From a virus: 20,183 nucleotides of DNA. The notes beneath the pieces are model-generated. The model saw only the letters and a list, made by a program, of their open reading frames with translations. It was not told the DNA's origin and did no database searches. The first letter of the stretch is position 1; the number at the start of each line of letters is the position of its first letter. This document shows, piece by piece, positions 2,801-20,033 of the stretch. Location: positions 1 to 20,183 of the IMG/VR virus record IMGVR_UViG_3300009183_000451. The stretch is one strand, 5' to 3'. The translations under genes and the position numbers were made by a program.

Positions 2801-4132
2801 CTAGATTGAATACTTAATGAAGTGATCGTTTCCGATTGTCTCTAACCCCTCTATGGATGTGTACACTATATCGAGTGTATCTGTATCGTTAGTAGGAGTT
2901 GGGGCAAGTCCACCAAGCATTTTTTCACGGAACCTGCTATTGATGCCGTCAGCCATTTCCAAGTAACGAATTTGCATACGATCTACTTGTCCACCACCTT
3001 GCTCAACCTTGATCTTTCCTGCAGGAACTAAGTATGCTTCTTTAGTATAAGCAGTGTTAGTAGCAGTAGAAGTAATTTGAGGATGAGATAATGCGTTCAA
3101 ACGCTTCTTGTGAAGAGTACGTCCAAATGCGAAGAATGAATTAACACCTAAGTTAATTGCAACTTCTTTACTTCCGCCGAATGAAGCGTAGTTAATAGCA
3201 CCATTTACAAACTGAGTTGCAGCAGAGATAGTAGTATCAAAACCATTATCAAAGTCAGCACCAGCCCATAATTGATACTCAGAAGGGCAACGGTTAGCGT
3301 CCATCAAACGAGATAAAGCAGATAAGTCAGACAAAGCAACAGTACCAGCAGATGCAACAGAAGAAGTAATACCTCCAGCGTTGATGATAGTATCACGCAA
3401 TCCACGAGTTGTGTTAATAGCGTTACCGGCAGCATCAGTTAAACCTGCAGACTCACGTCCAAACAAGATAGAATAAAGAATATCCATTCTATGCTTCAAA
3501 TAAGCATCGTGTTGTTGCTTTAAGAAGTAGTAAGGCTTTCCTTTGAATTCAACCTCAATCTTAGAACCGTAAGCGATATCTGTGATAGAAGTCTTAGTCT
3601 TGAAGATTTGAAGTTTGTTAGAACGCTTGATCAAATCTGATTTACGCATTTGGTTAGAAGCAGTTCCTTCAGCATAAGCATTAGAGAAGAAAGACAACTT
3701 AGCACCAGTTGCAGCCGCAGGAATTGCGTCAGCAGAGTTAACAGGCTTAACAGTGATAACAGGATCAGTAGCTGCAGAAATAGCAGAAACATAACCTACA
3801 ACACCGTTAGCGAATAAAATCAATTCACCTACTACAGGCTTAACAGAAGTTGCGCCAACAGCAGTAATATCTACAGAAGCACCAGCAGCACCCGCAGAAG
3901 TTCCTGGAGTCTTAACTGTAGCTGTAGCATATAAAAAGTTATTTTGTACAGTAAAGTACTCAGTTTGAGCAGAAGCTTTCGCCTTACCTGTCCAATCCAT
4001 TACGTCTAGCATAGACGCTTCTTCATCGTAGATGTCTAAAACATCCTTTAAAATTTCACGTTGCTCTAACGTGTTTGTGAAAGAAACCGTACTTAAAAAG
4101 GTACGATCTATATTTCCTGCTCCAATAGCCAT
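2801..4132 (-). CDS. Major capsid protein (HK97-fold inferred)
   Basis: This 443-residue protein is called major capsid from its size, composition and place after large terminase, portal and a scaffold-like gene. The N-terminus (1-55) is helical, as in HK97-type N-arms. Residues about 70-165 are Ala, Gly, Thr and Val rich (for example TPGTSAGAAGASVDITAVGA), resembling a surface insertion or flexible segment. The middle has long charged helices (FLKQQHDAYLKHRMDILYSILFGRE, about 205-229 by eye), resembling a spine helix and P-domain. The C-terminal third is beta-rich. Codon use is visibly richer in GCA/GCT Ala and other regular codons than its neighbours, which fits high expression. It follows the scaffold-like gene by 27 bp and ends at a strong terminator. 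The capsid role is firm; the HK97 fold is an inference. Confidence 0.88.
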   Translation of the reverse strand: MAIGAGNIDRTFLSTVSFTNTLEQREILKDVLDIYDEEASMLDVMDWTGKAKASAQTEYFTVQNNFLYATATVKTPGTSAGAAGASVDITAVGATSVKPVVGELILFANGVVGYVSAISAATDPVITVKPVNSADAIPAAATGAKLSFFSNAYAEGTASNQMRKSDLIKRSNKLQIFKTKTSITDIAYGSKIEVEFKGKPYYFLKQQHDAYLKHRMDILYSILFGRESAGLTDAAGNAINTTRGLRDTIINAGGITSSVASAGTVALSDLSALSRLMDANRCPSEYQLWAGADFDNGFDTTISAATQFVNGAINYASFGGSKEVAINLGVNSFFAFGRTLHKKRLNALSHPQITSTATNTAYTKEAYLVPAGKIKVEQGGGQVDRMQIRYLEMADGINSRFREKMLGGLAPTPTNDTDTLDIVYTSIEGLETIGNDHFIKYSI

Positions 4133-10261: not shown

Positions 10262-10434
10262 TAATTGATAATATATTTTTTATTATTAAATCTATTATTA
10301 TATTCTATTATTATGTGGTGAGATCTAGAGGGAGGGTGTAGTGAGATCTAGAGGGAGGGTATGCCTAAATCTCACTAGGGGGTATAGTGAGTTCTCACTA
10401 GGGGGTATGCCTAAATCTCACTAGGGGGGTACCC
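10262..10434. repeat. Iteron array with AT-rich 13-mers (second origin-like locus)
   Basis: Positions 10262-10314 are nearly all A/T and contain two 13-base repeats, TCTATTATTATAT (10291-10303) and TCTATTATTATGT (10304-10316). From 10315 five related units follow with about 23-bp period: two near-identical 23-mers (10315-10337 and 10338-10360), then three units carrying CTCACTAGGGG (at 10371, 10394 and 10417). A perfect 25-bp direct repeat occupies 10358-10382 and 10404-10428. The central unit contains the inverted repeat TAGTGAG-TT-CTCACTA. AT-rich 13-mers beside iterons are the classical layout of an iteron origin. The same cassette occurs inverted inside the initiator gene (18188-18345). 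The last unit overlaps the 3' end of the GroES-like gene. Confidence 0.75.
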
Positions 10435-11082
10435 CATTCTTTTACCTAAAATATCCTCTTGGCGTACCGTGTAGTAGTCTTTTCCTTCAATCTTATTTTT
10501 GAAGTGTGCATTTTTTGCAAGAATAATTTCATCATTTTGTTTTACCTCAAGTTCATTTTCTCCAATAAATGGTTTTCCAATAAATTTTAATTTTGCAACC
10601 CTAATTGATGAAGTTTTATGCAAACTCATTACAATTCCTGAAGTACTTACTGTTGCATTTATCTTTTTCGAAAGTACCTCCACCTGATTATATTCATTCT
10701 CCTGCTCAACCACTTCTTCGCAAAGTGTCCATGCGCCAACAGGTATAATACAACTATCCCTAACAGAACAAAAAATCCAATAATAAGGTACTTTATAATA
10801 GTTCCCATAAATGCAATTTGTTTCATTGTTTGTTACTAAGTAATGAAAATAAATTTTATCCCCAACTCTTACCTCTTTCTCAATTTCAAATCCGTTCTCG
10901 TTTATGCATTTTCCTTCAGGTACCGCGATGACAGTACCATAGATTTTAGCATGATGTGTGGGGTTGAATAATGGATCAATATGAAGTTTCATACTACCAT
11001 ATTCTATAGTGTCTTCTAACGCAGAATCTACCCTAACTATGACAGTGTTTACGGGTGACTGCTTAAGCTCGTATGTAAGCAT
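10411..11082 (-). CDS. Tandem-domain GroES-like co-chaperonin
   Basis: The 223-residue protein looks like two GroES-type beta-barrels in one chain. Domain 1 (about 10-120) has VIVRVD, IYGTVIAVPEG (48-57) and VRVGDKIYFHY (71-81). Domain 2 (about 135-215) has TSGIVMSLH, a shortened loop, VKQNDEIILAKNAHF (180-194), then GKDYYTVRQEDILGK (200-214), the typical GroES ending. In GroES the segment before the VGD-like turn closes the dome and a mobile loop binds GroEL. Phage co-chaperonins such as T4 gp31 adapt host GroEL for capsid protein folding. Here the gene is the first of the leftward block that contains the capsid genes. Its promoter is at about 11109-11116. The match is by pattern only; the second domain is more convincing than the first. 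Confidence 0.72.
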   Translation of the reverse strand: MLTYELKQSPVNTVIVRVDSALEDTIEYGSMKLHIDPLFNPTHHAKIYGTVIAVPEGKCINENGFEIEKEVRVGDKIYFHYLVTNNETNCIYGNYYKVPYYWIFCSVRDSCIIPVGAWTLCEEVVEQENEYNQVEVLSKKINATVSTSGIVMSLHKTSSIRVAKLKFIGKPFIGENELEVKQNDEIILAKNAHFKNKIEGKDYYTVRQEDILGKRMGYPPSEI

Positions 11083-17322: not shown

Positions 17323-17610
17323 ATGGAAAGAAGAATTGAGTCGACGGTTATTTCTCGTCATGGAAACCTTATTAATATTTATGCGGTAGAAAATCCTCTT
17401 GTTAGGAAAGAAATGCTTAAGCCCTATAGCTCTTATGAAATTGAATATAGATTTGGGGCAAACGGTTCAGATACTTTTATAGGGGAATACATTGATTGTA
17501 CTCCCGAAATGAGAAGTCTAATCTTTACTCATCCAACTAAAGGAGAAGGTAGAAGAATTATTGTACCAACAAATAATATTATTAAATTACGTCATTTGTT
17601 TGATAAATAA
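17323..17610 (+). CDS. Unknown early protein (95 aa)
   Basis: This basic 95-residue protein has a beta-rich pattern (SHGNLINIYAV-like, YSSYEIEYRFGANG) and ends in IPTNNIIKLRHLFDK. It starts after an AT-rich leader and ends 8 bp before the -7 element of the promoter at 17595-17625; the -33 element lies within its last codons. I do not recognise the family. Confidence 0.7.
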   Translation: MERRIESTVISRHGNLINIYAVENPLVRKEMLKPYSSYEIEYRFGANGSDTFIGEYIDCTPEMRSLIFTHPTKGEGRRIIVPTNNIIKLRHLFDK

Positions 17611-17625
17611 TTTGAGTTATATTTG
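17595..17625 (+). promoter_or_regulatory. Bacteroidota-type promoter for the RNA and replication genes
   Basis: TTTG (17595-17598), 19 bases, then TATATTTG (17618-17625) is an exact consensus match. Transcription should begin near 17631-17633, just before the first RNA hairpin. Confidence 0.8.
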
Positions 17626-17631
17626 TGAGTA

Positions 17632-17722
17632 GTATTTTGAATTGCATTGAGGGATGCGATTCAAAGTATAGGCTAAAATCCTATCGCCCAAGTTTCTTCC
17701 CTCAAGGACTTGGGCATTTTTA
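17632..17722 (+). ncRNA. Three-hairpin RNA with terminator: small RNA or replication-operon leader
   Basis: Beginning at the predicted transcription start there are three hairpins. H1: TTTGAATTGCAT (17636-17647) with ATGCGATTCAAA (17654-17665), 12 bp with one U-G pair, loop TGAGGG. H2: ATAGG (17668-17672) with CCTAT (17680-17684), loop CTAAAAT. H3: GCCCAAGT (17686-17693) with ACTTGGGC (17708-17715), 14-base loop, followed by ATTTTTAT, a terminator form. All six bases of loop H1 are complementary to CCCTCA (17699-17704) in loop H3, and the pairing could extend to eight bases (TTGAGGGA with TCCCTCAA). The product would be about 90 nt. It is either an independent small RNA or an attenuator leader, since the next ATG (17729) is only 13 bases after H3. 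Confidence 0.6.
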
Positions 17723-17728
17723 TCTTCA

Positions 17729-17923
17729 ATGGATCTAGAATTAATGGCATTTATGGCGGTAGTTAAAGTTAAGCTGATTCATACTCAAATGGACCTGGCT
17801 GACTACCAAAAAGCATTATCATTTGCAACTCCAGGAATGGAAGCCTTTGATATTTTATTAAAAAATGCAGAAGAACTAGTCAAAGAAATTCAGTTTTACG
17901 AAAATAAATTAAAAGAAATATGA
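17729..17923 (+). CDS. Small protein preceding the initiator (64 aa)
   Basis: This 64-residue helical, Leu-, Ala- and Glu-rich protein (MDLELMAFMAVVKVKLIHTQ, then an acidic helix ELVKEIQFYENKLKEI) lies directly after the RNA hairpins, and its stop overlaps the initiator ATG (ATGA, 17920-17923), so translation is coupled. It could help load or regulate replication proteins, but no family is identified. Confidence 0.72.
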   Translation: MDLELMAFMAVVKVKLIHTQMDLADYQKALSFATPGMEAFDILLKNAEELVKEIQFYENKLKEI

Positions 17924-18609
17924 GTTGGTTTGCGGTGATTTCTTCGGAGATATTGGTGCGAAAAGATTTGTCTGCTAATGAGAAATTATTGGTTGGATTA
18001 ATACAAAGTTTATCCCATCAAAAGGGGCATTGCTTTGCAAGTAATTCTTATATGGCTGAATGTATTGGAATATCAGCAAGTTCGGTTAGACAATACCTAA
18101 AATCTTTAGAAGATAAGGATATTATTACTAGGGATTTAAAGAAAAAAGAGTCTGGAGAGGTTGAAATAAGGGAAATCAAGTTGACTACCCCTCTGCCGAG
18201 AACTCACCATACCCCTAGTGAGAACTCACTACACCCTCTGCCTAATTCTCACCCCCCCTCTGCCGAGAACTCACTACATAATAAGAGAGATAATAATAAA
18301 GAGAATAAAAAAGAAGAAATAGTTAATAATCGATTTGAGGAATTTTGGGAATTGTATGGGAAGAAAGTAGGGAAGGAAAAAGCAAAGCTTAGTTGGATTA
18401 AACTAAAAGAAAAAGAAAAAGATGATTGTCTATTGGCGATCCCGAAGTACACCAAAGCTAGACCCGATATAATTTATCGAAAGGACCCTGAGCGTTACTT
18501 AAAAAATAGAGTTTGGGAAGATGAGATTGTAGGTTCCAATCTAAATGTTAAATCAGAACCAATTGATCAAAAACAATTTGAATTAATCATACCTGACAAA
18601 TGGCTTTAA
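17920..18609 (+). CDS. Replication initiator (O/P22-gp18-like), iterons in its gene
   Basis: This 229-residue protein has an N-terminal winged-helix or HTH region (about 15-75: LSANEKLLVGLIQSLSHQKG, SYMAECIGISASSVRQYLKSL), a linker (88-122) rich in Pro, His, Ser and Thr (PSENSLH and SAENSLH repeated) and a C-terminal domain (about 135-195: FEEFWELYGKKVGKEKAKLSW, then PERYLKNRVWEDEI) as in phage replisome organisers and helicase-loading proteins. The linker is encoded by iterons (18188-18275). By analogy with lambda O and P22 gp18, it would bind these iterons at the origin and recruit the helicase encoded just downstream. Start at 17920 overlaps the preceding stop. Its C-terminus overlaps the helicase start by ten bases. 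Confidence 0.85.
   Translation: MSWFAVISSEILVRKDLSANEKLLVGLIQSLSHQKGHCFASNSYMAECIGISASSVRQYLKSLEDKDIITRDLKKKESGEVEIREIKLTTPLPRTHHTPSENSLHPLPNSHPPSAENSLHNKRDNNKENKKEEIVNNRFEEFWELYGKKVGKEKAKLSWIKLKEKEKDDCLLAIPKYTKARPDIIYRKDPERYLKNRVWEDEIVGSNLNVKSEPIDQKQFELIIPDKWL
18188..18345. repeat. Iteron origin inside the initiator gene with AT-rich flank
   Basis: Four units lie at 18188-18208, 18212-18232, 18234-18253 and 18255-18275 with 21-24 bp spacing. CCCCTCTGCCGAGAACTCAC is exact at 18188-18207 and 18255-18274. The second unit includes CCCCTAGTGAGAACTCACTA (18212-18231), whose reverse complement occurs exactly at 10385-10404. From 18276 to about 18345 the DNA is A/T and purine rich (coding for Asn, Lys, Glu), a possible unwinding element. 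A 23-bp junction (18266-18288) is 20/23 identical, inverted, to 10304-10326. The array also fixes the composition of the protein linker. Confidence 0.8.
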
Positions 18610-20033
18610 ATAAAAAAATAGTAATTGAAGATTTTTTCCTTGAGGAGGATGTTATTGCATACCTACTAGAGAATTCTCACATGGTTCAAGATGCTTCTAA
18701 GATTATAACTGATAACTGCTTCGTAGACTTGTTGTTTAAGGCGTCATTTAACGCGATGGTTGAATTATCTATTGACAATAAGATATTCAATCGTTACGAT
18801 GTTTTTAGACTGCTTAAATCAAAGAATTTGTCTATAGGTGTAGATCCCTCGCATTTGCTAAGTTTGTTACCTAAGGGTAAAGTAGAGCTACCTAAAGTTT
18901 GCGGTGAGCTAAAAGAATTAGAAGTTAAGAGGATTGCTAATGACTTATCAATCTCTATTCAACAAAGTCTAGCTAATGGCGACGACATAACAAAGCTTTC
19001 GAGCGTAGTAGAACTAGGTTTGGCGGAAATTCAAAATGGTCCGCTCTCAACTGAAATATATTCCCTGGACAATGTCTATGAATCCGTGATGGATAAAATG
19101 GAAGCTACTGCTGGGGTGCTTAAATTTTCGGGCGTTGACACTGGTTCGCGTAAACTTAATTACGTCTTAGGGGGTTGGCAACCAGGAGTAACAATTATAG
19201 CGGCTCGCCCTGGTATGGGGAAGACTATTGCTGGGTTAGAGCATGCAAAATCTGCATCAAAGACGGGTGTTAAAGTATTATTTCTTTCGTTAGAGATGCC
19301 TAAAGAATCATTAGTTTATAGATATATATCTAGTGAATTTGAGGATTATAAGTATTCTGATTTAAAGGCAAATCGCATTAGCAAAGAAGATGTAACTAAG
19401 ATTAGGAATTCTAATGCTAGGGTCCTCAAGCAATTACCTATTTCGTTTTACGATTCTGATAATAGGGATGTTAACTATTTAAATTTGCTATTAATTAAGG
19501 AGTGCAGGAAGAATGGCATAGGACTCATTGTTATTGACTATCTGCAGTTAATACGCGACAATCAAATCAAAGATCAAAGTGACTTCGCCCAGGTATCATC
19601 CGTATCGAATAAAATTCAGAAGCTTACTCGCAAGTTAGGGATCCCAATTGTAGCATTATCTCAGTTATCTAGGAGTGTTGAATCCAGGGCTAATAAGCAC
19701 CCAATGTTATCCGATTTAAGAAGCAGTGGTAATATTGAGCAAGATGCAATTGTAGTTATTCTATTATACCGAGACGACTATTATAAATATGTTGAAGCTA
19801 AAGAATCAAATCAGCCCGTAGCTCAGATGGATAATAAGCTATTATACATAGTTGCCAAGAATAGAGACGGAGAGGTTGGCGATGTTAACAGAATTGTTGA
19901 CGTTAAAACAAATAGGATTGCCGATGAAGAATCAGAATTGTTTGGATTCAAGGAACCCCAGGTAGCATTTAAAGATTCAGCAATCAATAAGATTCAACCT
20001 AATTTTGATGATATAACAATTAGACCATTTTAA
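18600..20033 (+). CDS. dnaB: DnaB-type replicative helicase
   Basis: This 477-residue protein has the DnaB two-domain layout: an N-terminal helical domain (about 1-110) for hexamer packing and initiator contact, a linker, and a RecA-like motor domain. Motifs include Walker A AARPGMGKT (201-209), the catalytic Glu in LSLEMP (E232), Walker B LIVIDYLQLI (309-318), the sensor-type SQLSR (354-358) and SDLRSSGNIEQDA (371-383). It would unwind DNA at the phage fork, loaded by the initiator encoded just upstream with ten bases of overlap. The IEQDA motif is followed by Ile where many DnaB proteins have Asp (IEQDAD), a mild deviation. Length is normal. The order O-like initiator then DnaB helicase matches P22 rather than lambda, which encodes a loader (P). 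Confidence 0.93.
   Translation: MALNKKIVIEDFFLEEDVIAYLLENSHMVQDASKIITDNCFVDLLFKASFNAMVELSIDNKIFNRYDVFRLLKSKNLSIGVDPSHLLSLLPKGKVELPKVCGELKELEVKRIANDLSISIQQSLANGDDITKLSSVVELGLAEIQNGPLSTEIYSLDNVYESVMDKMEATAGVLKFSGVDTGSRKLNYVLGGWQPGVTIIAARPGMGKTIAGLEHAKSASKTGVKVLFLSLEMPKESLVYRYISSEFEDYKYSDLKANRISKEDVTKIRNSNARVLKQLPISFYDSDNRDVNYLNLLLIKECRKNGIGLIVIDYLQLIRDNQIKDQSDFAQVSSVSNKIQKLTRKLGIPIVALSQLSRSVESRANKHPMLSDLRSSGNIEQDAIVVILLYRDDYYKYVEAKESNQPVAQMDNKLLYIVAKNRDGEVGDVNRIVDVKTNRIADEESELFGFKEPQVAFKDSAINKIQPNFDDITIRPF

Follow-up and report, generated by a model that had tools for sequence, protein, structure and literature searches.

Virus contig IMGVR_UViG_3300009183_000451 of IMG/VR (20,183 bases; "the window" below means this whole contig) carries, between a promoter and its replication genes, two hairpins whose loops are complementary to each other. 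The question raised by this locus is whether the loops pair in a conserved RNA and, if so, what such an RNA might do for the genes that follow it. That these are replication genes had been proposed in a sequence-only reading of the same DNA, and PHROG matches of the initiation protein and of the DnaB-like helicase (Table 1) bear this out; the 64-aa protein encoded ahead of them had no match in the PHROG comparison. The terminase and portal proteins of the window are distant kin of those in Flavobacterium elemo, Cellulophaga and Tenacibaculum phages, and for this reason its host is probably a member of the Flavobacteriia. The minus strand (10411-11082) also encodes a protein with a GroES-like co-chaperonin domain (phrog_3188, phrog_13932), and GroES/GroEL genes are also present in the elemo and phi38:1 records.

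Promoter, hairpins and complementary loops in the window

Promoters of the Bacteroidota follow the consensus TTTG/TAnnTTTG, and in Flavobacterium johnsoniae the G of TAnnTTTG lies at -5 (PMC6847099). The + strand of the window has a single TTTG-N19-TAnnTTTG, the one listed in Table 1, and the F. johnsoniae spacing places its predicted +1 near 17630, two bases before hairpin H1 begins. H3 has the GC-rich hairpin and the T-run expected of an intrinsic terminator and is a putative one, and the ATG at 17729 stands 13 nt past this hairpin. H2 is weak, overlaps the foot of H1 and is absent from some of the classes of relatives described below. The sequence-only reading had claimed an exact promoter, a hairpin within about five bases of the start and a terminator hairpin 13 bases ahead of the next ATG, and all three were found as described.

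Table 1. Positions of the RNA and of the neighbouring genes in the window
Feature	Position	Strand	Remarks
Gene for 95-aa protein	17323-17610	+	stop falls between the -33 and -7 elements; 0 PHROG families
-33 element TTTG	17595-17598	+	consensus from PMC6847099
-7 element TATATTTG	17618-17625	+	19-nt spacer after TTTG
Hairpin H1	17632-17669	+	17632-17647 with 17654-17669, about 16 bp
L1, apical loop of H1, TTGAGGGA	17647-17654	+	
Hairpin H2	17668-17684	+	weak, 5 bp: 17668-17672 with 17680-17684
Hairpin H3	17686-17715	+	intrinsic-terminator-like stem GCCCAAGU/ACUUGGGC; 17686-17693 with 17708-17715
L3, loop of H3, TCCCTCAA	17698-17705	+	complementary to L1
T-run (T5)	17717-17721	+	of the predicted terminator
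Gene for 64-aa protein	17729-17923	+	small gene kept near the initiator in dozens of relatives
Replication initiation protein	17920-18609	+	phrog_270, E 3e-28
DnaB-like replicative helicase	18600-20033	+	phrog_19, E 1e-63

L1 and L3 are exact reverse complements over 8 nt, the full extent that had been claimed for them, and eight contiguous pairs are reached with a probability of about 0.0002 when the letters of both loops are shuffled. For the 90-nt stretch a folding energy of -34.7 kcal/mol (z = -5.6) was obtained, a value equalled by none of 200 shuffles. A descriptor combining the promoter box, a hairpin, a terminator and a loop complement of 7 or more matched once in the window and six times in 1.2 Mb of dinucleotide-shuffled sequence, both strands included. 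An Rfam search with the leader RNA gave no match, in agreement with the earlier impression that it belongs to no recognised family.

Relatives of the RNA and covariation of its loops

Six IMG/VR contigs encode an initiator 96-100% identical to that of the window and have leaders 93-99% identical to its own (compared stretches carry labels beginning with L). Their substitutions in H1 are C to T changes in the 3' arm (L003, L004) or in the 5' arm (L007), each of which turns a Watson-Crick pair into G-U. In one contig, L002, a deletion of 8 nt shortens the H3 loop; its terminator stem is intact, and five loop pairs (TTGAG/CTCAA) are left. The exact 16-base H1 pattern occurred in 20 IMG/VR stretches; two of these (L015, L021) are close relatives, and the others share only 16-23 nt and were taken as chance. 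Gapped-pattern matches in L117, L118 and L123 lie in unrelated sequence and were discarded.

More distant relatives were found by a helicase alignment search and then with an HMM of the 64-aa protein, by which the equivalent site was located in dozens of phages with helicases 52-66% identical. These have a like promoter followed by H1, H2 and H3, all 5' of the 64-aa gene. Class A (the window, L043, L045-L047, L049, L052, L056, L106, L113, L120) has the loops TTGAGGG/CCCTCAA, a G-U version with CCCTCGA and, in L106, TGGGGG/CCCCCA. Class B (L048, L051, L053-L055, L057, L059, L062-L063, L065-L066, L068, L070-L072, L074, L089, L111) has GTTGCG(G)/(C)CGCAAC, GTTGAG/CTCAAC and GTCGCG/CGCGAC. Class C came to light through weak class A model matches; the contigs of these phages reach about 33 kb, and their RNA sits between the 64-aa gene and the following gene of the replication module, with the loops GTGAGAG/CTCTCAC and GTAGGAG/CTCCTAC as well as GTGGTAG, GTGGAAG and GTCAGAG with their complements. 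Cross-searches link classes A and B: with a model made of class B RNAs only, class A members are recovered at this very site (E 3e-5 to 0.08), and L068 of class B is recovered with the class A model (E 5e-6).

The RNA lies directly 5' of the replication genes and on the same strand, and in class C the next ATG follows 10-16 nt past the TTTT regardless of which gene comes next. Whole-record searches gave one strong copy per genome; four genomes have weak class A model matches some 5 kb upstream as well, which resemble ordinary terminators and were set aside. A second, class C-like RNA with the loops GTGAGAG/CTCTCAC precedes a gene for an HNH homing-type endonuclease in L051 (4942-5040) and in L050 (3458-3557), so that these class B phages hold two loop types within one genome. 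The survey covered IMG/VR contigs, which are often partial, and records of cultured phages; a scan of genome contigs returned a remote helicase only.

Since MAFFT misaligned the loops in a mixed A+B alignment, which made it unusable in RNAalifold, the classes were analysed apart, and since the alignment of class A shifts at H2, this class was left out of the covariation count, its evidence being the loop pairs themselves. In class B, 95.0% of the alignment cells pair, and the kissing helix is paired in 100% of cells over 14 RNAs, with double changes at two of its pairs. In class C, 99.3% of cells pair, compared with 35-48% when the partners are slid by 1-3 columns, and the kissing helix is again fully paired (100%, 19 RNAs), with 20 double-changed cells at its three central pairs. 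Together, the two classes show double changes at five kissing positions, and the H1 stems covary in both. The observed covariation score was never reached by shuffles in either class, a control that is inflated by relatedness; neither the sliding of partners nor the count of different loop pairs depends on it. Among 16 representative loop pairs, contiguous Watson-Crick pairs between L1 and L3 average 6.9 when the loops are matched and 3.2 in mismatched combinations, of which only 3 of 236 reach six or more. The single loop pairs are each modest (p 0.0002-0.019), and the combined p of about 1e-22 over the 16 is overstated because some pairs are related. Across the classes the L1-L3 pairing extends over 6-9 bp.

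Conservation of the loop pairing in relatives, with the letters changing many times, is strongly supported by these comparisons, as is the structural part of the sequence-only reading, in which the loops pair within a structured RNA tied to the replication genes. The covariation of loop and complement, which it had named as a check, is present in classes B and C, where every kissing pair is kept in every sequence. Uncompensated drift of the loop away from its complement was also sought among the relatives and was not encountered, apart from L002 with its five remaining pairs. Apart from the match to its own partner, no loop sequence shows conservation.

In DNA, L1 and L3 are inverted repeats adjoining initiator genes, as would befit initiator operators or origin repeats lying in hairpins by chance. 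However, the repeats occupy the loops of hairpins flanked by a promoter and a T-run, and at stem cells G.T far outnumbers A.C (45 to 4 in class B, 37 to 2 in class C), which indicates that the conserved molecule is the sense-strand RNA. Moreover, the loop type does not follow the initiator type, the class C initiator gene of the MQKDAYY type being preceded by RNAs of the GTAGGAG, GTGAGAG and GTGGTAG types. On the strength of this bias and this independence the DNA operator was rejected, and a DNA element of either kind is very improbable.

The 54 rows of classes A-C form one supported group (96/100) in the helicase tree, and the RNA-less relatives (L032-L036, L109 and L037/L038/L270) fall outside it. 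L037 and L038 keep the promoter, with a single hairpin in front of the 64-aa gene; this retention before the same gene suggests that the promoter serves the operon. Their hairpin (about 5032-5090 in L037, about 5043-5100 in L038) has 12 bp with compensatory changes and comes straight after the promoter. In L032-L036 the genes abut with no RNA between them, and L109 (about 4075-4100) has a promoter-like TACTTTTG two bases 5' of an ATG, possibly giving a leaderless or differently started message. A lone 5' hairpin after the same promoter, as in L037 and L038, would suit the idea that H1 merely stabilises the 5' end ahead of an ordinary terminator and that the loop match is incidental, but the kissing positions of classes B and C covary, and every other class has matches of 6-9 bp, so that an incidental match is extremely improbable.

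Loop pairs of this kind also precede replication genes in other phages, including cultured ones. A descriptor scan found L184 and L200, with helicases about 28% identical to a search query, in which a promoter, H1 and a terminator with an 8-9-nt complement of the H1 loop stand before the initiator and helicase. Inspection of the equivalent spot revealed loop pairs, each with p about 0.008-0.019, in the replication-gene leaders of the Flavobacterium phages elemoE/F (GTGGAGG/CCTCCAC) and elemoA/D (TGAGAGC/GCTCTCA), in those of the Polaribacter phages Freya and Danklef (GGTGGAA/TTCCACC), and ahead of the replication genes of Cellulophaga phage phi10:1 (GTACGAC/GTCGTAC, with a -7-like TATATTTA). 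These leaders are supporting, not decisive, evidence for what is seen in classes A-C, and common ancestry is not implied. ElemoA and elemoF are nearly identical up to the promoter and differ in the RNA, the next small gene and the initiator gene; because the divergence runs through all three, the RNA seems to move with the replication cassette. The comparison of L273 and L275 with L272 and L274 (elemoA/D, elemoE/F) shows a swap of the replication cassette starting after the promoter. No matching element was seen at the places scanned in the Bacteroides phages Barc2635 and UZM3, in phage MW202828 and in phi38:1. In the record of phi38:1 (L283, 35200-35600) a leader with TATATTTG lies ahead of a tRNA array, and its terminator arm CCCTCCCC complements a GGGGAGG upstream, possibly a different kind of attenuator.

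Probable role of the RNA in the replication operon

Attenuating leaders are built of a promoter, a self-contained folded RNA with a terminator at its end and, a few bases further on, the operon itself. A matching layout is seen here, and we consider it on balance probable that the RNA is a structured attenuating leader of the phage replication operon. We infer transcription, termination at H3, read-through and an effect of the loop pairing on termination, in one direction or the other and in cis or in trans, as follows. RNA polymerase would start near 17630 and H1 would fold at the 5' end of the transcript. The H3 terminator would form next, and many transcripts would stop near 17721, giving a compact RNA of about 92 nt, while some would read through into the 64-aa gene, the initiator and the helicase. 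Pairing between the H1 and H3 loops would tune the choice between stop and read-through, either within one transcript or when a finished RNA meets a nascent leader, and in the latter case output would be tied to phage copy number. The sequence-only reading had offered a stable small RNA or an attenuator, acting as in plasmid replication control; the position, the short spacing from terminator to ATG and the diversification of the loops are consistent with this.

Several points count against an attenuating leader. A classical antiterminator was sought and not found, the longest leader matches to the terminator arms being of 3-6 (7 with wobbles, in L184), and the sole long match between leader and terminator hairpin is that of L1 with L3, of 6-9. 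As this match leaves the terminator stem intact, the pairing may stabilise or time the terminator and not replace it. In addition, H2 is not found in all classes, the operon of L032-L036 works without the RNA, the copy in L050/L051 precedes an HNH gene, and the element is lacking at the places examined in Barc2635, UZM3 and MW202828.

The last copy named, before an unrelated gene, would fit a free-standing small RNA of about 92 nt, stabilised by kissing and acting in trans on host or phage targets or on proteins, its location providing early expression only. The compact form with a hairpin at both ends and the one strong copy per genome agree with this. Yet the RNA is immediately 5' of the replication operon in almost all cases, the interval from TTTT to ATG in class C is too tight for another promoter, and the absence of loop conservation beyond the partner argues against a fixed external target, which makes such a small RNA rather unlikely.

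Each RNA molecule carries both partners, and pairing between molecules is therefore equally possible on sequence. If the 6-7 kissing pairs were stacked coaxially with both stems, about 30 bp would result by our own estimate, and in classes A and B the linker of 16-20 nt would be nearly stretched out and H2 melted; this strain mildly favours a bent or an intermolecular arrangement. A trans-pairing specificity RNA, in which L1 of one molecule would meet L3 of another in dimers or when a finished RNA binds a nascent leader, would be a stronger form of the attenuating leader and is a tentative possibility. Equally tentative is the wider proposal of fast-evolving self-complementary loops, widespread in Bacteroidota phages, whose pairing in trans would set replication dosage and co-infection compatibility. 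The class C loop types are dispersed over the helicase tree among near-identical helicases (8 changes in 10 rows for GTGAGAG, 7 in 8 rows for GTAGGAG) and freely combined with downstream genes; differing types share a metagenome sample (L053/L055, L085/L104) or a host (elemoA/elemoF), and the loops diversify yet stay self-complementary. Ordinary recombination, however, would scatter any allele, and cis pairing alone predicts the same covariation. If trans pairing is true, the loop type would act like the antisense loops in plasmid incompatibility and would define compatibility or immunity groups among phages.

Comparison with known RNA regulators

Gene regulation in Bacteroidota phages is little explored, and the RNA described here, an element with no Rfam entry, is common to phages with different replication modules. 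The many distinct natural loop pairs make its mechanism directly testable and are candidate orthogonal parts. A search of open-access text found no description of this RNA or its family, and it is probably a leader attenuator whose sequence family appears so far undescribed.

Intramolecular loop-loop pairing in a 5' leader is found in riboswitches, as between L2 and L3 of the purine and L5 and L13 of the cobalamin riboswitches. Unlike these, the phage RNA has in H1 a plain, variable helix and matches no Rfam model, and no conserved ligand-binding or internal-loop core was found in the RNA alignments, the stems being variable. The packaging RNA of phi29 also has a pair of loops complementary to each other, through which separate molecules can join. 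The present RNA differs from it in lying at replication genes and not at packaging genes, in having one loop within a terminator hairpin and in the lack of an Rfam match.

In plasmid pT181 the gene under control is that of the initiator, repC. The leader attenuator of this Staphylococcus aureus plasmid uses loop-loop kissing as its recognition step (PMC4878617). Both systems have a 5' leader, an intrinsic terminator (predicted in the phages) ahead of a replication gene, and kissing loops. In pT181, in contrast, the antisense RNA is a molecule of its own and the leader contains an antiterminator; in the phage RNA a single strand bears both loops, and the terminator hairpin provides one of the two. 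Among the features of pT181-type control, the replication-operon leader ending in a terminator-like hairpin is present, and an antiterminator pairing with a terminator arm was not found.

In satellite P4, the leader-derived CI RNA pairs with complementary leader sequences, leading to premature termination, so that the replication genes are not expressed, and the related IsrK RNA of Gifsy-1 is made by termination, with read-through yielding an mRNA (PMC4825925). The P4 CI RNA arises by processing of the leader, and its partners are seqA and seqC on either side; in the phage RNA one hairpin loop pairs with another that belongs to the terminator. Rfam models of P4 CI/c4-type and other described phage RNAs did not match it. 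To our knowledge, neither pT181 nor P4 CI/IsrK has a 5' loop paired to a terminator loop of the same strand. In its working, the phage RNA may be closest to the pT181 attenuator or to the P4 CI RNA, by analogy and not by membership in either group. The occurrence of such RNAs suggests that phages of Bacteroidota commonly control their replication through RNA, as plasmids and satellite P4 are well known to do.
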